From Methanosarcina vacuolata Z-761 (GTDB lineage: Archaea; Halobacteriota; Methanosarcinia; Methanosarcinales; Methanosarcinaceae), in assembly GCF_000969905.1 (NCBI RefSeq), contig NZ_CP009520.1, positions 4,154,001 through 4,218,000 of the forward strand: a stretch of DNA of 64,000 nucleotides, written 5' to 3'. The notes under the pieces were generated by a model. That model was not told the origin of the DNA and did not search any database. It saw only the letters and a list, made by a program, of their open reading frames with translations. A program made the position numbers and the translations under genes. This document shows positions 1,065 to 31,215 of the stretch, piece after piece (the first letter of the stretch is position 1; every line of letters starts with the position of its first letter).

Positions 1065-2113
1065 TCAATAAACCTCCCTATTATTGGTTCTCCTGCCCTG
1101 GGGGTGTATACATTTTTAACTTCGGGGTCAAGTGCTCTTATTGCTGATTCTTCGCTGGAGATGTAAAGCCGGTTTCCATTCTCACCAACTACGAGAGGTC
1201 GCAGTTTAATCCTGTCAGTAAACCCAACAATACCATTCTCTGTTCCAACTACAATTGCAAAGGGTCCATTCATGAGGGCAGACCCGTATGTAAGGCGAAC
1301 TGCTTTGTTCAACTCTGCTTCTTTCTCAGGCATCCGGTCAATATCGTCCCAGAAAGGAGGGGCAAGAGCCTTGACAACCATCTCATACGACAGCCCATGC
1401 TGCCTTCCAAGCAGGTCAAACAGATAGGCTACAACCTCGGTATCAGTAAATAGGGAACACTTGTATCCGTATCCTTCAACATAGCGCTGGTTTGTGCCAT
1501 ATGAGGTAATTTCTCCATTATGTACTACTGACCAGTTAAGCAGGTTGAAAGGATGAGCGCCTCCCCACCAGCCTGGAGAGTTTGTGGGATAACGGTTGTG
1601 GCCAAGCCAAATATATCCCTTGTAATCTTCAATTCTGTAAAAGTTTGCCACATCTTCGGGCCAGCCGGAAGCTTTGAAGACTCCCATATTTTTCCCGGAG
1701 GAAAATATTGTAGCTCCTTTTACATTGGCATTTACTTCCATGACTATGTAAGTGACAACATCATTTTCAGAAGCCATTTTCCCTGCCATTAAGTCTTCTG
1801 AGGGCTTAAAGAAATATCTCCATGGGGTGTGTACTTTCTTTATGCCCGGCTGCGGGGTGGTAGGGATTTCTTCCTGGTGAACAATTATTCCCCATTGTTC
1901 GAGGAGCTCATCTACCTTCTTTTTTGATTCACCTAGATTGTCAAAGAAAACATGAAGAGCATAGTAGTCTGCATACTCCGGATAAATTCCATATGCAGCA
2001 TAGCCTGCCCCATCTCCACTACCTCTTTCGTTCATGAGGCTGAGGGCGACTTTTATGCTCGACCCGTCCATTCTGGACTTTGTTCGGTCTATAAAGCCTA
2101 TTATTCCACACAT
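1061..2113 (-). CDS. Glutamate synthase, class II glutamine amidotransferase subunit
   Basis: The protein is an Ntn-type class II glutamine amidotransferase of about 350 residues that releases ammonia from glutamine for the neighbouring synthase subunit. I start it at the ATG giving [10 protein letters not shown], because Cys2 must become the N-terminal nucleophile; an in-frame GTG three codons upstream would bury it. Other family signatures are [11 protein letters not shown] and the HNGEI segment, which bind and position glutamine. It overlaps the downstream FMN subunit by 4 bp. The third archaeal piece, the GXGXG domain, is not seen in this window. A TATA-like stretch lies near 2150-2160 on the minus strand. 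Confidence 0.93.
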
Positions 2114-2988
2114 TTTGATCACTCTAAAAATGGATAGGAATGAATGTAATGCATATACGTTAATAATTTTCTGGATTATTTCCGTGGCTCATTTTTGAGA
2201 ATTAGTTCAAAAAACTTGCCAGCTGAAAAACTGGATTTTTAGGGTAACTTTTATCAATTTATATAATTTATGGATCTTTAACTAAGTCGAGTCAATCATC
2301 AAGGATTCAGTGATTCCAAATAATTGCAATCGATTTTATACGACATTTTGAGGTTGATTCGACACTAAGTTTGTTTCATATAAATTATTTAATTAATGTG
2401 AGTATATAGCAACGCTTCCACATATGGTTCTACTTCTTTTCATACATCGAGAGGGTCACCACTAAGGGAAGTAAGTAATTTAGTACCTATTTGACAATAT
2501 ATATATGTTTCTTTTTTCCAATTAAAAGTTCTTGAGGTAATGCTGCAAAGCACAACGGTATAACCTTTTATTTATTTTGTTTGCACTTTTATTTTAGAAA
2601 CTTCTGCATTTTAGCATAGAATATCCCTTTTTAATAGCCTCCACACTGTCGTCTTTAGGAGCTTCTATGACGTTTGCTTGTAGTGCATACTTGAATTAAT
2701 TTTTTTAAAAAGTACTACTTTTGAATATTAGGGTTTTTCAGAAGGGAAGCATTTTTATATCAATATTTATTATAGGCATTAGTTTTAAAAAATATTAAAA
2801 AACTTATTATCCCCTGACCAGAAAATTCAAGAAAAAAATATTATATTAGTTTGGGGGAGTTGTATTGTAAAATAGGAACACACTTTCAGGAAGAAGTGTG
2901 TCTTTTCAAACAAACATTTAATTCTGCCACTATTTTTTCACAGTAAATTTTTTCGGTATCCACATGGGTTTTAGGATTTTTGATATGC
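2114..2988. other. Intergenic region between glnA and the glutamate synthase genes
   Basis: This 875-bp AT-rich stretch has no supportable ORF. It holds the presumed glnA terminator (2878-2901) and must contain the promoter of the glutamate synthase pair near 2113. I looked for a second GGTA-N6-TACC nitrogen operator here and found none. Confidence 0.6.
2878..2901 (-). terminator. Hairpin downstream of glnA
   Basis: A perfect 8-bp inverted repeat (ACACACTT / AAGTGTGT, loop of 8) lies about 90 bp past the glnA stop. On the minus strand it is followed by a short T-rich run. It may act as the glnA transcription terminator. Confidence 0.45.
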
Positions 2989-4332
2989 TTACAGCATATG
3001 TAAATATTTATCAAGTTCCCAGGGGTGAACAATTGCTTTGTATTCATCCCATTCCATCTCTTTAGCACAGAGATAGTGACTGAAAACGTGTTCTCCCAGT
3101 ACATCTTTTACGAATTTGCTGCCTTTCATTTCATCAATTGCACCTTTAAGGTCTGCAGGTAGGGAGCGAATACCCTTTTCCTTCCGTTCTTTTTCAGTAA
3201 GGTGGAAAATGTTCGCGTTAGTCGGCTCTCCGGGATCGATCTTGTTCTTTATACCGTCAAGCCCAGCTCTGAGCATCAGTGCAAAGGCAAGATAAGGATT
3301 ACACGCTGGATCTGGGCATCTTAGTTCAACTCTAGTCCCATTGCCACGGGTTGCAGGAATGCGGATAAGGGAACTTCTGTTCTTTGCAGACCAGGTGAGG
3401 TAAACCGGCGCCTCATATCCGGGTACAATTCTCTTATAGGAGTTAACAACCGGATTTGTAACGGCTGCAAATTCCGTAATATGTTTCAACAGGCCACCAA
3501 TATAGTACATTGCTTCTTGAGAAAGCTGGTCTGCACTCTCTGGATCATAGAATGCATTCTTGTCTCCCTTGAAAAGAGACTGATTGGTATGCATACCTGA
3601 GCCATTTACTCCAAAGAGAGGTTTCGGCATAAAGGTAGCGTAATATCCTTTGTGATATGCAATTGATTTTACCACATATTTGAAAGTTATAACATTGTCT
3701 GCGGTACTCAGCACGTCACCGAACCTAAAGTCAATCTCATGCTGAGAAGGTGCGACTTCGTGATGAGAAGCTTCAATCTGGAAGCCCATACGTTCAAGAG
3801 TATAATCAATATCTCTACGTACATCCTGTGCACGGTCAAGGGGAGAGAAATCGAAGTATCCTCCATGATCCGTAAGTTCTGTGGTCGGATTTCCGTTTGC
3901 GTCAAGTTTGAAGAGGAAGAATTCCATTTCAGGACCGACATTCATTGAGTACCCCATTTTCTTGGCTTCTTCAATTGCGCTCTTAAGAACATATCTGGGG
4001 TCTCCCTCAAACGGTTGACCATTAGGAAGATACACGTCTCCAAGGATCCTGGCTACTGCGCCAGTCGTAGGTCTCCAGGGAAGAATCCTGAAAGTAGACG
4101 GGTCGAGCACAAGTTTCATGTCAGATTCTTCAATCTTTGTAAAACCCTGGATCGAAGACCCGTCAAACATTACCCCGCTTTCGAAGGCTTCTTCTAACTG
4201 TTCAACAGGGATTGCCCAGCTTTTGATGATGCCAAGTGTATCCGTAAACTGGGTACGGATAAACTTTACGTCTCTTTCTTTTACAGCCTCTAATACATCT
4301 TCTTTGGTCATACACTTCTTTATCTGCACCAT
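2989..4332 (-). CDS. glnA: Glutamine synthetase, type I
   Basis: This 447-residue protein makes glutamine from glutamate, ammonia and ATP in the cytoplasm, the main ammonia-assimilation step together with glutamate synthase. Its length is typical of GS-I. Visible signatures are the beta-grasp DGSSIQGF near residue 60, the metal site segment EMEFFLF, the ATP-binding GSGMHTNQSLF region, and the NRSSLIRIPA glutamate-binding loop. No adenylylation-type tyrosine region (the NLY motif of GSI-beta) is apparent, which suggests the alpha subtype, controlled by GlnK or small proteins; that is inference. The upstream operator and TATA box at 4361-4393 show control by nitrogen status. The first ATG fits homologues. 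Confidence 0.97.
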   Translation of the reverse strand: MVQIKKCMTKEDVLEAVKERDVKFIRTQFTDTLGIIKSWAIPVEQLEEAFESGVMFDGSSIQGFTKIEESDMKLVLDPSTFRILPWRPTTGAVARILGDVYLPNGQPFEGDPRYVLKSAIEEAKKMGYSMNVGPEMEFFLFKLDANGNPTTELTDHGGYFDFSPLDRAQDVRRDIDYTLERMGFQIEASHHEVAPSQHEIDFRFGDVLSTADNVITFKYVVKSIAYHKGYYATFMPKPLFGVNGSGMHTNQSLFKGDKNAFYDPESADQLSQEAMYYIGGLLKHITEFAAVTNPVVNSYKRIVPGYEAPVYLTWSAKNRSSLIRIPATRGNGTRVELRCPDPACNPYLAFALMLRAGLDGIKNKIDPGEPTNANIFHLTEKERKEKGIRSLPADLKGAIDEMKGSKFVKDVLGEHVFSHYLCAKEMEWDEYKAIVHPWELDKYLHML

Positions 4333-4644: not shown

Positions 4645-6173
4645 GTAACTATTCAGGGTATAGCTAGCGGCGCTCCTTTGAGCGCCGCGAGAATACCCTC
4701 TAAAACAGGTAAACCATTCTTTCTTATTGTGGAAATATATGCTCTAATTCTGCAGAAAGCTTCCGCTCCCCGTGTAGTTCTGAAAGTTCCTGATATTTTC
4801 TGCTGTAGTTTCATCATCCTGACATCTCTTTCTGCTTGATTATTCTCAAACGGAACTTTCAAGTCTTTCAGGAATCTCAGAATCTTTTCTTTATGTTCTA
4901 TAAACCTATCAAGCAGATTCCTTGCTTTGGTTTTTGGATACATACCACGTTTTCCTTGTCTTTCAGGATTTAGAGAAGGTGGATTTTCTTCAATTCCTTT
5001 CGCGACTACAGTATCGAACCTTTTTTCTAATGCCTTAACTTGTTCAAAATCCAGATATTTGCCCTGCTCTTTGCACTCATCAGTATACTTTTTCATTTCA
5101 GATAACAGCTCATTCATATCTTTAGCCCATTGCTGTTTATAACTCTCCTCAATTCCAATAAGTTCTCTTTGGAGATGGGCATTGCAAAGAGCATGATCAC
5201 AATTATAACCGTTGTAAGGTTTCCATCCATCATGAACTGCTACCCATTTAAACTCTGGAAGAATTCCCATAGCATCAATAGCTTCTGATCCTCTTTTCGG
5301 ATGAGCAAAATAACAAGTGTATTTGTCAGTAGAAGCTACATGAAGCCCAATGTCTTTTTCCGTGAACTTTCATTCCAGTTTCATCACAATGGATAACAGG
5401 AGAAGAGAGTAACTTTTCTCGAATTACGTTTTCAAATTCTTCAAGATTCAGGAAACATTCTCTTTCTGCTTCAATAATGGTAGCAGAACTGATTTTTATC
5501 CCCATTACATCATGAAACAATTCAGAAATCCTTTTATAAGGAATGAAATGGTGATTTTTAAAGTAAATTGCTGAAGCTACGATATTAGGACCATATTGAA
5601 CTGGGGAATTTACTGATTCTGGAAATTCAGCTTTATTTAACCTTCCACAGCAAGGACAGATCTTAATCTGACTTTGATGTTCTGTAACAATAAGATTTAC
5701 AGGCGGAATATCAAAAACCTGTCTTACCTCATAAGCTTTAACTTCAACATCCTCAAGATTCTGGCCGCATTCTTCGCAACAGTTCAAAGAATGCTCTATT
5801 ACCTAATCAGGATTATCTACCATTTCGAGAGTTGTTCCTGGATGACCTTCTTGACCTCCAGGTTTCTTGCCACTCTGTTTACGGAGACTTTTTGGATTAG
5901 GTTTTCCTTTGGAAATATAGTCACTAGAAGGAGGTTTACTGCTGTTTCGGCTGTTTTGATTTAAGCGAAATTCTAAAACTTGCAATCTTTCAGTGAGGTC
6001 TTTAATTTGAGATTCAAGACTTATAATATAAGCAATAACTTCAGGGTTTGAAGCACACAAAGCAAGAATCTCTTCACGTTTCATCAAGGAAGAAAATGGT
6101 TCATTTTATATCCAATTTTTCCTCGGAACGAGGAAAAATTGTGTAGCCTTAACAAGGCTACCTGAATAGTTAC
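4645..6173 (-). mobile_element. IS66-family insertion sequence, copy 1 (1529 bp)
   Basis: The element is bounded by 13-bp perfect inverted repeats GTAACTATTCAGG / CCTGAATAGTTAC and flanked by the 8-bp duplication CCTGAATT. It carries one transposase reading frame on the minus strand. Near the promoter end are two perfect hairpins (TAGCCTT/AAGGCTA and a 13-bp stem made of CAATTTTTCCTCG and its complement). At the other end is a GC-rich hairpin (GCGGCGCT/AGCGCCGC) overlapping the last transposase codons. A nearly identical copy lies at 29690-31215 in the opposite orientation. The 3-bp length difference is fully explained by one inserted base here and two deleted bases there. Confidence 0.95.
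4653..6084 (-). pseudogene. IS66-family transposase with in-frame amber codon and a +1 frameshift
   Basis: The N-terminal part shows the IS66 leader with a coiled-coil (LESQIKDLTERLQVLEFRL), the NSRNSSKPPSSD motif and KKPGGQEGHPG. An in-frame TAG follows at 5803-5805, after VDNPD, and the same frame then continues with the zinc-finger CCEECG...CPCCG, the DDE-domain core (VIHCDETG) and on to residue about 245. One extra G near 5347 then shifts the frame. The rest, from GILPEF to the C-terminal NNQAERDVRMMKLQQKISG and GAPLAIP, is intact. The TAG is shared with copy 2 and could encode pyrrolysine; the frameshift is not shared. This copy is therefore probably inactive now. The stop codon lies inside the terminal inverted repeat. 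Confidence 0.9.
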
Positions 6174-7914: not shown

Positions 7915-8441
7915 ATCATCCCCCATAAATCTAAAAATATGTAAGCTAGAACCATAATTGTTCAGTATTACTGAACATAGATCTATTGTTATTTTAAAAT
8001 AGAAGTCTAACTGTTAGCTTAATTAACTCTTGTTTCAAAGCAGATTCCATAATATAAAGATATCTTTTTTTAAAGTACTTTTATTATTTACATATAATGT
8101 GATAAAGAAAGAATTTTTTAGTAGAAAACAAAAACGGGAAATTATAAGGGTCACACTTCAATAAATAAGATTTAACCGGGTAATTTATCAGACATCTTAG
8201 AAACTTCTAGACAAAAAACAAGCAGCGTTTCAGAGATTAGTTTAGAAACTCTATTTCCTATTTATATAAACCATCTGAAACATAACTACTTGTGTAAAAC
8301 TATTAAGATATTTATTCAAACTCAATAGTTTCAGGAAACTACTTACTAAATTTATACCCATTTAATAGGGGTCTTACGTTGGGATCTAATATAAATGACA
8401 AGAGTGATCCAATACGGTAGAGGGAAGGGGTTGATTCACGT
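7915..8441. other. Intergenic, divergent promoters
   Basis: No gene is supportable. The region separates the minus-strand Hsp20-like pair from the plus-strand ABC exporter. An AATATAAAT stretch near 8389 is a candidate TATA element for the exporter. Confidence 0.5.
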
Positions 8442-11725: not shown

Positions 11726-12900
11726 ATATTTAAACCTCTTTCATATTAAAAAACTAAAAGAAATTCTTTTTAAAAATTTTAATTTTTTGCTTTTTTGTTC
11801 TATATACTCCAAAATTACCTCCTTATCGGGTTCTCAAGTACAAGAATAGAGCTGAGATGTAAAGATTTATTCGGCTGAACTCTTATGGCTGTTTGATCAA
11901 CCATTGGGTAGTTTCTCTATAAAAAACCTGAACCCAGTCACTTTTGCTAAGAAAAAAATGATACAGGTAACAAGCATGCATGAGCACGTAGTCTAAACCT
12001 GTATTGAGATCATTTAGAATGGTAACTGATTAATAAACACTGAGATCTACTTCACCTGGAGAACCTTCCAAAGCTACCAAAGCCCTGACCGCTAAAATAC
12101 ATCATCTTAAACCTTATAATCTCTAGAAAAATGGTAATTTTAGTATAACTCAAATAAAACATTGACATTATAAGTCCCTCCACTTCTCTACTTTCAAAAC
12201 TATCTCTTTTCAATTCATCTTCCTTCAATTAATTGAGTATCTTCTGCCAATTTAACTTGGTTCACGGACCACTCCAGATAGATGTGTTTTCGCCAAACCC
12301 CCTTAGACATCCATATTATATCATATTCCCAAGCTATACTCCCAGGAATTTACTTTTGGAACTACAGCTAAGTATAAACAATCTTGAAGATTTCCAGCTA
12401 AAACATTTAGGGATTTAAAGGATATTATGTTTGATAGCTGGGCCATATATCAATATATATTAATTAATAGTATCAAAATTGAGTATACTAAAAACCAATA
12501 TTTCCAATAATAAATTACAAGGGAATATCAATACCAAAGTATACTTCAAATTTATATATAATGTGAAGAACGAAAACTCCTTACAAATAATAGTCTTTTA
12601 GTATTTAGAGATAGAATCTTTTGCTACAATAATTGCATAGGAGTCCCAAGCATCTCGTTTCTTTAATTTCCATTTCAACTTCCCGGAGGTGAATACCCTT
12701 TTAGGGAAAGTCACAATGTTCAAAAAAGATTATACTTTTTGGATTTTCGGCTTTTTAAAAACAATTTTAAATTATAGACTGTTTCTTATCTCATATTTTA
12801 AAAAGTATATTTGAAACGGTAGAAACCTTCGAAAGAATGAATATTAGGAAAATAAAAAAGAAGTAAAAAAATGTTAATATTGCGTTTCTTTTGTAAAGAA
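11726..12900. other. Gene-poor AT-rich spacer
   Basis: No supportable gene. Short open frames (for example 12233-12418) lack ribosome-binding sites and family features. A GGAGGTGA at about 12683 is a strong Shine-Dalgarno-like sequence but has no suitably spaced start codon; an ATG 29 bases on opens a 32-codon frame that I do not trust. Confidence 0.5.
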
Positions 12901-12926
12901 GAAGTTACCTGAAAAACAGGCAACTT
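12901..12926 (-). terminator. Terminator hairpin at the end of the micro-ORF array
   Basis: On the minus strand GAAGTTGCCTG and CAGGTAACTTC form an 11-bp stem with one mismatch and a T-rich loop, followed by TTCTTT. It lies 37 bp after the stop of the last 25-codon ORF, as expected for the end of a minus-strand transcript that carries the array. Confidence 0.6.
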
Positions 12927-12962
12927 CATATGTTAGTATTATCTCTTAATCAGCATTATTGC

Positions 12963-13040
12963 TTAATCACAGTAGAAGAATTTAAAGCATTCAGCTATAT
13001 ATGTATAGGAGACCTTTGAATAGAAAATGCTGAAGGTCAT
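12963..13040 (-). CDS. Micro-protein, 25 residues, tandem copy 1
   Basis: The peptide begins MTFSIFYS and ends AECFKFFYCD; it is aromatic-rich, with two cysteines and a C-terminal Asp. GGGGG lies 10 bases before the ATG. Compared with copies 2 and 3 it has five conservative replacements (for example Lys to Asn, Val to Ile, Ile to Val) and five further synonymous codon changes, no indel and no early stop. Outside the ORF the units do have indels. I recognise no family. It is the last gene before the hairpin terminator at 12901-12926. Confidence 0.6.
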   Translation of the reverse strand: MTFSIFYSKVSYTYIAECFKFFYCD

Positions 13041-13096
13041 AATCGAACTTCCCCCAATATATCAGTTAGTTTGTTTATTTCCCGTTATACCCTGGC

Positions 13097-13144
13097 TTTC
13101 TGCGATCGGGAAATATAAGACTTTATGGCCATTCCCTGCAGAAA
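13097..13144 (-). ncRNA. Conserved hairpin upstream of micro-ORF copy 1
   Basis: TTTCTGC/GCAGAAA (7 bp), GGGAAT/ATTCCC and ATAA/TTAT pair into one long interrupted stem on either strand. On the minus strand it lies in the leader, about 55 bp before the ribosome-binding site of the 25-codon ORF. It could be an mRNA processing or regulatory element. Confidence 0.45.
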
Positions 13145-13177
13145 CCGCCTAATTTACAGCTTAATTAGCATTCCTAC

Positions 13178-13255
13178 TTAGTCGCAGTAGAAGAATTTGA
13201 AGCATTCGGCCACATAGGAATAGCAGATATTTGAATAGAAAATGCTAAAGGTCAT
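13178..13255 (-). CDS. Micro-protein, 25 residues, tandem copy 2
   Basis: This copy also begins MTFSIFYS and ends AECFKFFYCD. Its protein is identical to copy 3, although three codons differ, all synonymously at the third position (ACC/ACT, TTT/TTC, TAC/TAT). GGAGG lies 10 bases before the ATG. The pattern of third-position changes argues that the peptide, not only the RNA, is under selection. No family is recognised; a membrane-associated or metal-binding role of the Cys/Phe/Tyr-rich peptide is conceivable but unproven. Confidence 0.68.
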   Translation of the reverse strand: MTFSIFYSNICYSYVAECFKFFYCD

Positions 13256-13308
13256 AATATCAGTTCCTCCAATTTTTCTTGATTGTTCATCTCCCGTTAT
13301 ACCCTGGT

Positions 13309-13355
13309 TTTCTGCGATAGGGAATATAAGCCCTTATGGCCATTCCCTGCAGAAA
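13309..13355 (-). ncRNA. Conserved hairpin upstream of micro-ORF copy 2
   Basis: This is the same architecture as at 13097-13144: stems TTTCTGC/GCAGAAA, GGGAAT/ATTCCC and ATAAG/CTTAT, about 18 bp in all with small internal loops. Stem bases are kept while loop bases vary between the two copies. Confidence 0.45.
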
Positions 13356-13401
13356 CCGCCTAATTTACAGCTTAATCAGCATTCCTGCGTAGTCGCCCTG
13401 C

Positions 13402-13479
13402 TTAGTCGCAATAGAAGAATTTGAAGCATTCGGCCACATAGGAATAGCAGATATTTGAATAGAAAATGCTGAAAGTCAT
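13402..13479 (-). CDS. Micro-protein, 25 residues, tandem copy 3
   Basis: The peptide is identical to copy 2. GGAGG lies 10 bases before the ATG, the same spacing as in the other two copies. In this unit the upstream hairpin region has diverged (only CTGCAG and short flanks remain), while the ORF is almost unchanged, which again points to the ORF as the conserved element. Confidence 0.66.
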   Translation of the reverse strand: MTFSIFYSNICYSYVAECFKFFYCD

Positions 13480-13607
13480 AATATCATTTCCTCCAATATT
13501 TTTCTGATTGTTCATCCCCCGTTATACCCAGGCTTCTGCAGTCTGGACATAGAATATCGTTGTCGTTCTCTGCAGAGACCTCTTCTATTTCTGCTTTAGA
13601 AACTCAT

Positions 13608-13697
13608 TTAACAGAACTGGAAAAAGAAGCCAATGTTGTTTGTAAATGTAAAGAACTGGCCAAGGCTGAATCCAAAGACAATTGCTGGTAATGTCAT
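13608..13697 (-). CDS. Micro-protein, 29 residues, head of the array
   Basis: The ORF starts MTLPAIVFGFSLGQFF and ends FFFQFC: a very hydrophobic, Phe-rich peptide that could span a membrane. GGAGG lies 8 bases before the ATG. It is not clearly homologous to the 25-residue peptides but shares small size, an MT start, aromatic richness and a terminal Cys or CD. A competing frame with an ATG at 13743 (52 codons) has no ribosome-binding site. The gene is the first of the series on the minus strand. Confidence 0.5.
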   Translation of the reverse strand: MTLPAIVFGFSLGQFFTFTNNIGFFFQFC

Positions 13698-13930
13698 GGT
13701 TATTTCCTCCATAGTTTGTATTTTCGAAATCGATACTTGCATACTGTAGATAGCAATTTTATTTGCAACCGCTGTTCAATTTTGATATAATTTTCGTCTA
13801 TCAAACCTCCAAATCACACGGCTACTGTCAGCCACTTAATAAGATTCATGGGGCGGATTTCCTCTTAGTTCAGGATCTACCGTTAAAAATTTTAGCTAAC
13901 AGTGACTGTATATAGCTATATATACTAAAT

Positions 13931-13940
13931 TATATAAACT
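13931..13940 (-). promoter_or_regulatory. Candidate TATA box for the micro-ORF transcript
   Basis: On the minus strand AGTTTATATA is a near-consensus archaeal TATA element. A transcript started about 25 bp downstream would have a leader of roughly 200 bases before the 29-codon ORF. A weaker candidate (AATTATATC) lies at 13785-13793. Confidence 0.35.
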
Positions 13941-14567
13941 CAATAGAAAATTATCTCCTTATAAATAATACTTCTAAAATGATTAGAGTAAATATTTCAC
14001 ATACATATATATGTTTTTTTAACTTATATAATGTTTAGAAGTTTAAAATTTACTACCACTTAGATCTAAATATTAAATTGTCTTCACCGGTCCAAAGAAG
14101 AAATTCTCTAAAATGTCTGGTGCAACCATCTGAATTCTGCCATCGTCTTTTTAGAAAAGATGTAATATAAAAGCAGTATAAATTAATTAGAACAAATACT
14201 GGAAAAAGATTATAAATTTTCTAAGAAATGCCTCTAATCTCATTAAATAGTTACAGCTATCTGTTTTCACTGCTTCTATTTTAGTGGACTCCGGTTACAG
14301 AAATTTTTAGTAAAGAACAGTGCTTTATACTGAAAAATTTCGTCAAAATGTCCAAAATAATATATCGAACTTTTAGTTTGAAAATATAGTTTTAATCTCT
14401 TGTTTTCAAAGACAGAAATCAGCAGCTACATACCTTCAAATTGGCTCTTTAGGCGAAAATTAAGAAAGCATAAGTTAAAATGGACTGTTTTACATAATGA
14501 GTAAAAACGTTGAAATTATTCAATGTAATCCATTCATCACATTTCAGTAACTTTGGGGAAGGGGGAT
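13941..14567. other. AT-rich spacer
   Basis: I see no gene here. The region must hold the promoter for the ABC cassette starting at 14568; several TATA-like runs occur and none stands out. Confidence 0.45.
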
Positions 14568-15272
14568 ATGAATATTATCAAAAATAGTTTACCTGAGGAT
14601 GGATTCCCGATTGTCGACGTTTCCAATGTCAGGGAAAGTTATGTACTTGGGAGTCTGGAAATTCCCGTGCTCTCAGACGTCAATCTCAAAACGGAGAGAA
14701 GAGAATTTCTGGCTATAATGGGCCCATCAGGTCCAGGAAAAAGTACTCTTGTGAACCTTATAGATTACCTTGGCAGGCCTACTGCAGGTCAAGCTCTTGT
14801 AAAGGGTCATGACCTCAATAGAATGCCAGATCAAGAGCTTGTCCACCTGAAGGAGCTTGAAGTTGATTTTGTATTTCAGACTTTTAATCTTGTTCCGTAC
14901 CTGACTGCCCTGGAGAATGTTTTGCTCCCAACCTTTGCTAATTCGAGAATTAATATTGATCCAACAAGAAGTGCAAGGGAACTTTATGAAGTTATAGGAA
15001 TTCATAACCACATGCATCACAGACCAGGAGAACTTTCAGGAGAGCAGTCCCAGTGGGTTTCAATTGCACCACATATTAATGATCCTGCAATCCGTCTTGC
15101 GGATGATCCTACTGGAAACCTTTACCTCAGAAAAGGGGCCGAAGTCCTTCGTATATTTAAGGGTTTGAATAACGAAGGCAGAACAGTAGTAATCGTCACA
15201 CACGACCCCGAAATTGCAAAATATGCTAACAGAGTCATCCTGGTAAAAGATGAAATAATTCAATACAATTGA
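14568..15272 (+). CDS. MacB-type ABC ATPase, degenerate first copy
   Basis: A 234-residue ATPase closely related to 18062-18928 but with damaged motifs. Walker A is GPSGPGKST (family GPSGSGKST). The signature reads LSGEQSQWVSIA instead of LSGGQSQRVAIA. Walker B reads RLADDPTGN instead of LLADEPTGN, so the catalytic Glu is Asp. The H-loop VTHDPE is intact. The changes at the signature Gly and the catalytic acid should strongly reduce ATP hydrolysis. The frame is still open over its full length, so decay is recent or the protein has a non-hydrolytic role. I use the ATG after GGGGAAGGGGG rather than an upstream TTG. It is followed after 12 bp by the surface-protein gene. Confidence 0.82.
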   Translation: MNIIKNSLPEDGFPIVDVSNVRESYVLGSLEIPVLSDVNLKTERREFLAIMGPSGPGKSTLVNLIDYLGRPTAGQALVKGHDLNRMPDQELVHLKELEVDFVFQTFNLVPYLTALENVLLPTFANSRINIDPTRSARELYEVIGIHNHMHHRPGELSGEQSQWVSIAPHINDPAIRLADDPTGNLYLRKGAEVLRIFKGLNNEGRTVVIVTHDPEIAKYANRVILVKDEIIQYN

Positions 15273-15284
15273 AGGTGAAAGTAT

Positions 15285-16526
15285 ATGGAAATGATTAAGA
15301 AGCTTACTGTAACAATTCTTTTTCCTTTGCTTTTGATTTCCTTGCTTTTTGCAGTTCCTGCCTCTGCAGCTGTTGGAGGAGCCAATCTGAAAGTTACAAT
15401 AGTCGAAACAAACCCCTATCCTGCAAAAATAGGAGAATACCTGACTTTAACCGTTCAGGTAGAAAACATAGGAGGGGACAAAGCTGACAACGTTGATATC
15501 GAAGTGGTACCTCAATATCCTTTCTCTCTTGATTCAGAGGCAAATGCCCTGCAGAATGTTGGAGTCCTCAATCCAGGCAGAACTGCTACAAAGGAATTTT
15601 ACCTTTTTGTAGACAAAAATGCGCAGAAAGGGATCCGCTCCATTGACATCAGAACAAAAACAGGTAAAAACAGTCCCTGGAGTGAGAAAAGCTTTGACAT
15701 ACGAATAGGCACTGAGACATTTAACAGTAAAGGTACAGTTGAACTTAAGGAATTTGTCTCGGATCCTGAGGTTTTCATGCCCGGAGACAGGGGTACTGTC
15801 ACGGTAACTCTTAAGAACACTGCAAGTAATCCTACTGTTACTATTGGTGGGAGTGACTTTGATACCAATGCCAGGATTCAGGCTGCAGTTTTAAGACCTT
15901 TATCCGATGGGATAATCGTCCTTGATGCTCCTTACGGAGATATGGGTCTTCTGGGGCCCGGAGATAGCATCAAATTGACTTTCAATGTTAAAGTTGCAGA
16001 AGACGCTCCGGAAGGAACTCACAACTTTGAACTTGCAATAGAGGGGAACTCCTTCGATTACAACAGCAGAAAGAATATTCCTCTCAAGGTCGATTCTGCA
16101 AACATAAGAGTGATCCCTTCAAAAGAACTTCAACTGACAAATGGTGAATCTACAATTGAATTCGACGTAGCGAACACTCATCTGAACGAGTTTAGCTCGG
16201 TAAGTATAAAACCTGAAGCAGAGGGCATCACCTTTTACCCTGTAGAATATTTCATAGGGCCAATGAATCCGGACGAACTTTTTACGATTGAATTTAATGC
16301 CGTTGCAGATGATTCGTGGGGTGCCAGTAAGGAAGAAGAGATAAACATGAACCTTACCGCAAACTACAACAACGGAATCAACAGACATGCAAATACGGTA
16401 GGGGACCTGAAATTTATAGATACTTCAGAGTCACCTGAGTCTAATTCAACAGCCGTACTGGCAGGTGGACTTATTATAATCTCTGTTCCTGCAGCTTTCT
16501 TGTTTTACAGAAGAAGGAAACAATAA
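15285..16526 (+). CDS. CARDB/COG1361-like secreted, membrane-anchored protein, copy 1
   Basis: A 413-residue protein with a signal peptide (residues about 1-29, ending in PASAA), two to three immunoglobulin-like CARDB/NPCBM-associated type repeats (e.g. LTVQVENIGGDKADNV, GTVTVTLKNTASNPTV) and a C-terminal transmembrane helix followed by RRRKQ. It should stand on the outer face of the membrane with a small cytosolic tail. It is embedded in a MacB-like ABC operon, so it may act as the extracytoplasmic partner (a functional analogue of MacA) or as substrate binder; that is inference. A paralogue at 18979-20235 is nearly identical over the first 370 residues. Confidence 0.85.
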   Translation: MEMIKKLTVTILFPLLLISLLFAVPASAAVGGANLKVTIVETNPYPAKIGEYLTLTVQVENIGGDKADNVDIEVVPQYPFSLDSEANALQNVGVLNPGRTATKEFYLFVDKNAQKGIRSIDIRTKTGKNSPWSEKSFDIRIGTETFNSKGTVELKEFVSDPEVFMPGDRGTVTVTLKNTASNPTVTIGGSDFDTNARIQAAVLRPLSDGIIVLDAPYGDMGLLGPGDSIKLTFNVKVAEDAPEGTHNFELAIEGNSFDYNSRKNIPLKVDSANIRVIPSKELQLTNGESTIEFDVANTHLNEFSSVSIKPEAEGITFYPVEYFIGPMNPDELFTIEFNAVADDSWGASKEEEINMNLTANYNNGINRHANTVGDLKFIDTSESPESNSTAVLAGGLIIISVPAAFLFYRRRKQ

Positions 16527-16567
16527 TTAAAGAAAGGTTAGCTGACATCATATTTGTGGGGGAAAAT

Positions 16568-17782
16568 ATGATAAAACTTACACAGGCAGCTCGTATAGCC
16601 GTTGGAAGTATAGGTAGTGCTAAGCTAAGGTCTGCACTTACAACACTGGGGATAGTAATTGGCATAGCTGCAGTAGTTGTTAATGCATCTCTTGGTGCCA
16701 GTTTTAACCAGTTTTTTACTGATGAGATCTCTTCTGTAGGCTCTAATTTTATAATTGCAGCTAGCGAACAGCCAAATCTCTTCTTTGATAACGAGTATAA
16801 TCTAATAAAGAATACGCCGGGAATTTCCGGGGTATCTCCAAGAAAATCAATGAGTGGGGATCTCACATATCTTTCTGAAACTAAAAATGTGAATATTGCA
16901 GGAGTTAACAAAGATTTTCAGGAAATTCAGGGACTTCAAATGGAAGAGGGCACTTTCCTGACGGACAAAGATAGTGCTGCGGCTGTCCTTGGATATGACA
17001 TTGCAAATGATGAGTTCAGTAAGAATATTTCCCACAGGAGCACTGTAGAGATCGCTTTTCGACAGGAAAACGGTACGGTTGTGACGAAGAGTTTTAAGGT
17101 AAAAGGAATATTGAAAAATTCCAAGCCAACTGTTGTGAGTGAGGACAGCGACTATGATTTGACAGTTTTCATTCCCGTTTCTACAATGAATGAAATGATC
17201 GGGGAAAAAGACTATGGGGCTTTCCTTGCGATGGCAGACAGTCCTGAGAAAATTCGTGATATTTCAGATGACGTGGATAGCAGATTAGCCAGGAACTTCG
17301 GAGTCCCGGAAAGAGATATTGATGAGGAGGATTTAAAACCCTATTACGTCTTTAACCAGGAGGAAGTTCTTGAACAGACTGGAAAAATTGGAGACGCTTT
17401 GAGTTCTTTCCTGCTCGTTCTTGCCCTAATATCTCTATTTGTGGGCTCGATAGGAATTATGAATATTATGCTTGTAACCGTAACTGAAAGAACCAGAGAA
17501 ATTGGGATAATGAAATCCGTAGGCTATAGCAATTCTAATATTCTATCACTTTTCTTGCTGGAATCTGTAATGGTCAGTTCCTTTGGGGGGCTCGTAGGTA
17601 CTGTAATCGGTGGTCTGGGAGCTTACGCTCTTGAAATCACCCTTAAGCTTCCTCCTGTTTTCCCCTTAGCATTGATTGAAATAGGGATTGCAGTTTCGGT
17701 TCTTGTGGGGATAACTGCTGGTCTTTATCCTGCAAGAAAAGCTGCACGCATGAATCCTGTTGATGCTTTAAGATATGAATAA
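16568..17782 (+). CDS. MacB/FtsX-like ABC permease
   Basis: A 404-residue permease with the MacB layout: TM1 near residues 20-40, a large extracytoplasmic MacB_PCD domain (about 45-265), then three TMs in the C-terminal FtsX domain (LVLALISLFVGSIGIMNIML, VMVSSFGGLVGTVIGGLGAY, and the last helix). The end GLYPARKAARMNPVDALRYE is the family signature. Start chosen at the ATG after GTGGGGG. It is the only permease in the duplicated cassette, so either ATPase (14568 degenerate, 18062 intact) might work with it. Such systems move macrolides, lipoproteins or peptides, or act as mechanotransmitters; the substrate here is unknown. Confidence 0.9.
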   Translation: MIKLTQAARIAVGSIGSAKLRSALTTLGIVIGIAAVVVNASLGASFNQFFTDEISSVGSNFIIAASEQPNLFFDNEYNLIKNTPGISGVSPRKSMSGDLTYLSETKNVNIAGVNKDFQEIQGLQMEEGTFLTDKDSAAAVLGYDIANDEFSKNISHRSTVEIAFRQENGTVVTKSFKVKGILKNSKPTVVSEDSDYDLTVFIPVSTMNEMIGEKDYGAFLAMADSPEKIRDISDDVDSRLARNFGVPERDIDEEDLKPYYVFNQEEVLEQTGKIGDALSSFLLVLALISLFVGSIGIMNIMLVTVTERTREIGIMKSVGYSNSNILSLFLLESVMVSSFGGLVGTVIGGLGAYALEITLKLPPVFPLALIEIGIAVSVLVGITAGLYPARKAARMNPVDALRYE

Positions 17783-29689: not shown

Positions 29690-31215
29690 GTAACTATTCA
29701 GGTAGCCTTGTTAAGGCTACACAATTTTTCCTCGTTCCGAGGAAAAATTGGATATAAAATGAACCATTTTCTTCCTTGATGAAACGTGAAGAGATTCTTG
29801 CTTTGTGTGCTTCAAACCCTGAAGTTATTGCTTATATTATAAGTCTTGAATCTCAAATTAAAGACCTCACTGAAAGATTGCAAGTTTTAGAATTTCGCTT
29901 AAATCAAAACAGCCGAAACAGCAGTAAACCTCCTTCTAGTGACTATATTTCCAAAGGAAAACCTAATCCAAAGAGTCTCCGTAAACAGAGTGGCAAGAAA
30001 CCTGGAGGTCAAGAAGGTCATCCCGGGACAACTCTCGAAATGGTTGATAATCCTGATTAGGTAATAGAGCATTCTTTGAACTGTTGCGAAGAATGTGGAC
30101 ATAATCTTAATAATGTTGAAGTTAAAGCTTATGAGAAAAGACAGGTTTTTGATATTCCCCCTGTAAATCTTATTGTTACAGAACATCAAAGTCAGATTAA
30201 GATCTGTCCTTGCTGTGGAAGGTTAAATAAAGCTGAATTTCCAGAATCAGTAAATTCCCCAGTTCAATATGGTCCTAATATCGTAGCTTCAGCAATTTAC
30301 TTTAAAAATCACCATTTCATTCCTTATAAAAGGATTTCTGAATTGTTTCATGATGTAATGGGATAAAATCAGTTCTGCTACCATTATTGAAGCAGAAAGA
30401 GAATGTTTCCAGAACCTTGAAGAATTTGAAAACGTAATTCGAGAAAAGTTACTCTCTTCTCCTGTTATCCATTGTGATGAAACTGGAATGAAAGTTCACG
30501 GAAAAAGACATTGGCTTCATGTAGCTTCTACTGACAAATACACTTGTTATTTTGCTCATCCGAAAAGAGGATCAGAAGCTATTGATGCTATGGGAATTCT
30601 TCCAGAGTTTAAAGGGGTAGCAGTTCATGATGGATGGAAACCTTACAACGGTTATAATTGTGATCATGCTCTTTGCAATGCTCATCTCCAAAGAGAACTT
30701 ATTGGAATTGAGGAGAGTTATAAACAGCAATGGGCTAAAGATATGAATGAGCTGTTATCTGAAATGAAAAAGTATACTGATGAGTGCAAAGAGCAGGTCA
30801 AAGATCTGGATTTTGAACAAGTTAAGGCATTAGAAAAAAGGTTCGATACTGTAGTCGCGAAAGGAATTGAAGAAAATCCACCTTCTCTAAATCCTGAAAG
30901 ACAAGGAAAACGTGGTATGTATCCAAAAACCAAAGCAAGGAATCTGCTTGATAGGTTTATAGAACATAAAGAAAAGATTCTGAGATTCCTGAAAGACTTG
31001 AAAGTTCCGTTTGAGAATAATCAAGCAGAAAGAGATGTCAGGATGATGAAACTACAGCAGAAAATATCAGGAACTTTCAGAACTACACGGGGAGCGGAAG
31101 CTTTCTGCAGAATTAGAGCATATATTTCCACAATAAGAAAGAATGGTTTACCTGTTTTAGAGGGTATTCTCGCGGCGCTCAAAGGAGCGCCGCTAGCTAT
31201 ACCCTGAATAGTTAC
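29690..31215 (+). mobile_element. IS66-family insertion sequence, copy 2 (1526 bp)
   Basis: This copy has the same 13-bp terminal inverted repeats, subterminal hairpins and content as 4645-6173, in opposite orientation. The 8-bp duplication TTTATTTC is intact, which shows direct transposition rather than recombination. It sits between purB and ramA. Correcting the two-base deletion here and the one-base insertion in copy 1 gives the same ancestral length of 1528 bp for both. Confidence 0.95.
29779..31207 (+). pseudogene. IS66-family transposase with in-frame amber codon and a -2 frameshift
   Basis: It shows the same domain order as copy 1. The frame is open from MKREEILALC to VDNPD, then TAG at 30058-30060, then open again in the same frame (CCEECGHN..., CPCCGRL) to FHDVMG, where two bases are missing near 30360 compared with copy 1 and a stop follows. 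The remainder is intact in the next frame up to GAPLAIP (including VIHCDETGMKVHGKRHWLHV). The amber codon is at the same site as in copy 1; the frameshift is not. Confidence 0.9.

Follow-up and report, generated by a model that had tools for sequence, protein, structure and literature searches.

The window, that is, the whole stretch of 64,000 nucleotides of Methanosarcina vacuolata Z-761 that was analysed, carries on its minus strand a single predicted transcription unit consisting of a TATA box, a leader of ~215 nt, ORF A, three copies of ORF B and a terminator hairpin (Table 1). The three tandem 25-residue ORFs and the 29-codon Phe-rich ORF with a GGAGG sequence of the original prediction are all present. 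In particular, the two upstream B copies encode the same protein, with three synonymous codon differences and no indels, while B3 differs at five amino acids, again with no indel. The unit starts previously assigned to 12945, 13160 and 13371 hold for the repeat units but not for the ORFs, whose repeats begin at 12958, 13173 and 13397. Likewise, the Shine-Dalgarno spacing, described as fixed at 10 bases, is similar rather than identical, as GGAGG lies 8-10 nt ahead of the ATG and copy 3 has GGGGG instead. B1, the 5'-most copy, has an additional in-frame ATG upstream that would give a 37-aa product, and conservation supports the 25-aa version. The genome holds no further close copy of B outside the array, and a single-copy relative, ORF C, lies 0.8 kb beyond the terminator hairpin. 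ORF C, an RNA box ahead of each B, the structured leader and sister loci elsewhere in the genome go beyond what had been predicted. The same window contains two Rfam matches to PYLIS_5, the pyrrolysine insertion sequence of a transposase, at 30058-30157 (+) and 5706-5805 (-), the latter inside a transposase-like frame split into ORFs 5326-5787 and 4653-5270.

Table 1. Features of the micropeptide array and of its surroundings (positions within the window).
Feature	Position	Strand	Basis
ABC operon LolD (decayed)-CARDB-MacB, divergent from array	14553..17782	+	constant neighbour of main array
TATA box TTTATATAA of array promoter, then palindromic TATATAGCTATATA stretch	13930..13938	-	near-invariant upstream of A in 12-genome alignment
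5' leader RNA, long-range stem CAGUCACU/AGUGGCUG (alternative CUGUUAGC/GCUGACAG) near transcript 5' end, then GGAGGUUUGAUA	13784..13912	-	R2 match, MFE fold, family covariation
ORF A, 29 aa, Phe-rich, MTLPAIVFGFSLGQFFTFTNNIGFFFQFC	13608..13697	-	GGAGG Shine-Dalgarno; homologues at nearly all array loci
Hairpin of A/B1 spacer, GGUCUCUGCA...UGCAGAAGCC	13531..13582	-	consensus fold of 21 spacers
RNA box of B1, GUAUAACGGGGGAUGAACAA	13508..13527	-	3 genome matches with at most 2 mismatches
ORF B1, 25 aa, MTFSIFYSNICYSYVAECFKFFYCD	13402..13479	-	array homologues across genus
Hairpin of B1/B2 spacer	13306..13357	-	consensus fold of 21 spacers
RNA box of B2	13283..13302	-	genome box search
ORF B2, 25 aa, protein identical to B1	13178..13255	-	array homologues across genus
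Hairpin of B2/B3 spacer	13094..13146	-	consensus fold of 21 spacers
RNA box of B3	13071..13090	-	genome box search
ORF B3, 25 aa, MTFSIFYSKVSYTYIAECFKFFYCD	12963..13040	-	array homologues across genus
Terminator-like hairpin GAAGUUGCCUG-loop-CAGGUAACUUC, then U-runs (12871-12865)	12901..12927	-	kept 3' of last B at all loci inspected
ORF C, 38 aa, MSMFYLSYTKITIFLEIIRFKMMYFSGQGFGSFGRFSR, single-copy B relative, Gly/Phe tail, own upstream region	12052..12168	-	E=2e-21 here; codon selection

The array is not a peculiarity of this genome. A search with a B profile finds B arrays in 21 of 31 Methanosarcina genomes, with 2-7 copies each, a recurrence well beyond chance that bears out the tandem amplification of a tiny gene. 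Named relatives include M. spelaei and the isolates DH2, 2.H.T.1A.6, MSH10X1 and Ant1, and no convincing match of B was found outside the genus among 238 genomes of the class. A and C accompany the B array nearly always. A lies upstream of B at nearly every locus in differing copy ratios (1 A to 3 B in the window, 3 A to 7 B in locus L046, three A-B-B' units in L048), and a single-copy ORF C is found at E<1e-12 in 22 genomes of the genus. The promoter CTTATATAATTT...TATATAGCTATATACAGTCACTG hardly varies across the 12 genomes aligned, and conservation of the TATA box and of the terminator hairpin extends across the genus. The proposal of one transcript agrees with a single conserved promoter for all copies and a terminator hairpin after the last B. 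Each B is further preceded, ~30-50 nt ahead of its start codon, by a 20-nt box, GUAUAACGGGRRAYRAACAA, whose 3 occurrences in the genome, with 2 mismatches allowed, are all in this array. The spacers can form UCUGCA...UGCAGA hairpins, with modest covariation in a consensus fold of 21 spacers.

The codon patterns indicate that the B peptides are under purifying selection in the sense frame. Between adjacent B copies, differing sites fall at codon positions 1, 2 and 3 in the numbers 112, 65 and 144 (p=4e-7). The pN/pS of the sense frame, in tests on short and related sequences, is 0.40 for adjacent copies and 0.52 when genomes are compared, the lowest of the frames. Other frames are mostly near 1 or above, except for the reverse frame that shares its third positions with the sense frame (0.47 and 0.67). 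In addition, ORF C has a dN/dS of 0.16-0.46. The original prediction of micro-genes kept by purifying selection is borne out by these figures, and their translated appearance by the frame-specific selection and the absence of internal stops. Indeed, stops and frameshifts at neutral frequency in homologous loci, which had been named as evidence that would speak against it, were looked for, and about 80 B copies in the 31 genomes (E<1e-4) contain no internal stop.

The leader of the transcript appears to be shared with other genes. Weak homologues of B occur at a second locus, and the leaders there were therefore compared; they share a stem, UAUACUC..GGCAAUU / AAUUGCC..GAGUAUA, that is followed by GGGGGUUGAUAA. 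Model R1, built from seven of these second-locus leaders only and from no A/B leader, matches 24 of the 31 genomes and finds the A/B leaders of loci L047, L041 and L077 at the right place (E 0.0005-0.03; E=0.005 in genome G009). Model R2, built with these three A/B leaders included, matches the leader position at 21 of 22 A/B loci (the three used in building it among them) and is found in 26 of the 31 genus genomes, with 1-7 leaders per genome. The window's own leader is only weakly matched by R2 (22.5 bits, E=0.36 in 320 kb), at the same position as in 20 other A/B loci, and the long-range stem is present in its MFE fold. A further R2 match at 8186-8298 (-) in the window has no Shine-Dalgarno-led ORF after it and was taken as chance. 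Similarly, three weak matches in other genera (E 0.002-0.009) precede an unrelated 59-63-aa ORF or none, and were not counted as members.

Covariation across the 78 members points to a true stem. In alignments A6 and A8, which were fitted to the structure and hence are biased towards the stem, all 14 pairs of the 14-bp stem show double changes and 93.1% of cells are paired. Fitting the alignment to the model makes the controls important, and 116 double-change cells are observed against 32.1 +/- 4.6 in shuffled and at most 32 in slid alignments. At the gathering threshold, Rfam returned no match for the leaders of the window and of seven sister loci, and the matches to SNORD127 and mir-198 in E-value mode were chance only. 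A covarying structure thus stands ahead of several homologous or co-functional genes, as in structured cis-regulatory leaders of the general kind, and, judged by its covariation, the leader is a structured 5' leader RNA family that is absent from Rfam. The covarying stem, together with the conserved box and hairpins of each unit, could also be taken to mean that the RNA itself is the functional product, as a sponge or an array of sRNAs, with incidental ORFs. This appears very improbable against the frame-specific selection, the fixed ORF length and the lack of stops in about 80 copies, and several genomes lose the spacer hairpins yet keep the ORFs.

What the leaders precede is mostly a micro-ORF. 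A GGAGG-led ORF of 15-90 codons starts 77-195 nt downstream of 60 of the 78 leaders, against 162 of 4000 random positions (4%), and such a strict micro-ORF is absent after the other 18. The leader-linked micropeptide genes encode 25-70 amino acids and occur in tandem copies. The genome of the window has four leaders outside it (at 2,767,338, 2,800,090, 2,801,510 and 2,802,388), with Gly/Cys/Trp-rich peptides downstream, among them MCGWFGGCGWGGGWGWRRSWRRCGGWGGGWGDWC and a 73-mer that contains CCITAVRACKIK. Three leader-RNA transcripts with Gly/Cys/Trp-rich peptides are seen near ileS/6-HMPDK-like genes in this same genome (locus L152, G000:C2:2796000-2806000), and at loci L162 and L181 the leader RNAs are closely followed by long proteins that are rich in repeats and have a signal-like N-terminus (GVAVPSGVAVPS..., ASGEGTCAEKGNVM...). 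The sister peptides elsewhere show pN/pS of 0.23-0.62, and had no match in Pfam or NCBIfam and none that convinced among PDB sequences. A RiPP reading of the Cys/Gly peptides was dropped, as no modifying enzyme was present among the five neighbours checked with Pfam, a check that was not exhaustive. Collectively, a peptide family, selection on its protein, a structured leader and the association of leaders with ORFs are evident from genome comparison. Type I toxin-like micropeptides, with either the structured leader or an antisense RNA as silencer, would also be short, hydrophobic and tandemly repeated, as Ldr and Ibs are (PMC4147584), and such systems typically have long structured 5' leaders. 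This identity is nevertheless improbable: the alignments show no conserved opposite-strand promoter within the units, all copies share one conserved promoter, and membrane toxins do not resemble the Gly/Cys/Trp sister peptides.

A constant neighbour of the main array is the LolD-CARDB-MacB operon, divergent from it at 18 of the 18 loci checked directly and, by coordinates, in further genomes. CARDB is usually present in two copies in array-bearing genomes and in one in several genomes without array. This arrangement raises the possibility that A and B are leaderless bacteriocin-like or PSM-like peptides, exported signal-free by the transporter and acting on neighbours or membranes, and tandem leaderless peptides of 30-34 aa are indeed known in aureocin A70 and garvicin KS (PMC6131525). 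All the linkage, however, lies within one family, and synteny is therefore weak evidence for export. The Ant1 array and the sister arrays are far from the transporter, and B has a charge of -2 to +2 (A is mostly negative) while the known leaderless bacteriocins compared are cationic, at about +2 to +7. In addition, the LolD1 orthologues have decayed independently in the barkeri-like clade, where catalytic motifs or the frame are lost, and are intact elsewhere, while the peptides remain selected. Because of this decay, a dedicated exporter was downgraded as the main reading, and export of this kind is judged unlikely. In the window, damage to the LolD1 ATPase (14553-15272, +) affects Walker A, the signature and the Walker B region (GPSGPGKST, LSGEQSQW, LADDPTGN). 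The transporter-linked site can also carry other peptides. Genome G026 has tandem 32-mers MFDTLIGIGNFAIQTATGNAFIAQIIGQWTWV (MFDTLIGIGNFAIQTATGNAFIAQ...) there (L089:7862-8382, +), with no Pfam match and a resemblance by eye to curlin repeats. In UBA9310 (L109, reverse strand, about 2056-3690) the site holds at least three tandem F-rich 21-mers of the MLDFLIFAFNTFVGSWFQFFM type, with further copies partly masked and a similar box in each unit.

The expectation that the peptides belong to no known family is in line with the databases: A, B and C had no significant profile match in Pfam or NCBIfam, nor was there one in Rfam, and the peptide strings were not found in the open-access literature. 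As for folds, A shows strong beta alternation, B is helical, and C is beta by moment and a helix by AlphaFold. Since these predictions differ, no single fold is claimed, and a beta-sheet or amyloid reading was set aside for the same disagreement. In particular, AlphaFold, which tends towards helices when run on single sequences, predicts one helix each for C and extended B (pLDDT about 81). Such helices would fit peptides that regulate membrane complexes or form small subunits of them and are needed in high copy, as MtrI/MtrR do for the Mtr complex. Binding to Mtr is known for one sORF protein of Methanosarcina (PMC12774963), and another study reports a membrane-associated sORF protein (PMC11456600). 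Such a role seems rather unlikely, as no sequence similarity to these proteins is shown and the fast change and replacement of the peptides (L089, L109) would be unusual for a fixed binding partner.

All in all, the array is probably a polycistronic micropeptide operon, amplified for dosage under one leader RNA, within an undescribed genus-wide Methanosarcina regulon. ORF A and the tandem B copies, each ORF with its own Shine-Dalgarno sequence, would share a single promoter, a structured 5' leader RNA and a terminator. Folded at the mRNA's 5' end, the leader would set translation or transcript stability on a common signal, and tandem copies would raise the yield of one peptide. This leader RNA would recur on several transcripts per genome, most of them coding for very short aromatic- or Gly/Cys/Trp-rich peptides. 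These patterns lead us to infer translation of all the micro-ORFs, a regulatory role of the leader and a dosage achieved via copy number. As to function, the self-association of the peptides as envelope or structural micropeptides fits best, since their composition is of low complexity (aromatic and Gly/Cys/Trp), they are amplified in tandem and their turnover is fast; it is put forward as a tentative reading. More speculative, and doubtful as a whole, is a wider proposal in which the 5' leader represents a new class of regulatory RNA in Archaea that senses a ligand or a protein. It would control, across the genus, aromatic or Gly/Cys/Trp-rich micropeptides that self-assemble, have been multiplied in tandem to raise their dosage, and build or alter the cell surface of Methanosarcina.

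Methanosarcina are model methanogens, that is, methane-making archaea, and to our knowledge few RNA-based control systems are known in Archaea, to which this leader may offer an entry point. The databases searched have no family that matches the peptides or the RNA, so the system appears to be a regulon of unusual micropeptides that has not been described before; it comprises several peptide families, and as many as seven leaders were detected in one genome. Leader and peptide families alike appear new, being absent from Rfam, Pfam, NCBIfam and open-access text. One RNA model and a few short peptides might thus give a handle on hundreds of unexplained archaeal small ORFs.

Several known systems come close, among them the sORF proteins of M. 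mazei, where Ribo-seq is reported to have given 314 unannotated sORFs, 21% of them inside former sRNAs (PMC11456600). These are likewise very short, often located in former sRNAs and genus-restricted, and some of them may be members of the ORFs described here; unlike here, tandem arrays and a common leader RNA do not feature in the main text of that paper. The leaderless bacteriocins aureocin A70 and garvicin KS also consist of several homologous tandem peptides (27-34 aa) without leader sequence, a feature that the array shares, whereas B is not clearly positive but near neutral and Phe/Tyr-rich, has a structured 5' leader and has sister loci away from any transporter. Ldr/Rdl and Ibs/Sib type I toxin-antitoxin systems similarly combine tandem repeats, short hydrophobic peptides and structured RNA, but the array has a single polycistronic promoter, and no conserved antisense promoter was seen in it. 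Finally, riboswitches and ribosomal-protein leaders in Rfam resemble the leader in having a covarying 5'-end stem on several unlinked transcripts; the leader differs from them in lying outside Rfam and in being followed by micro-ORFs of extreme composition.
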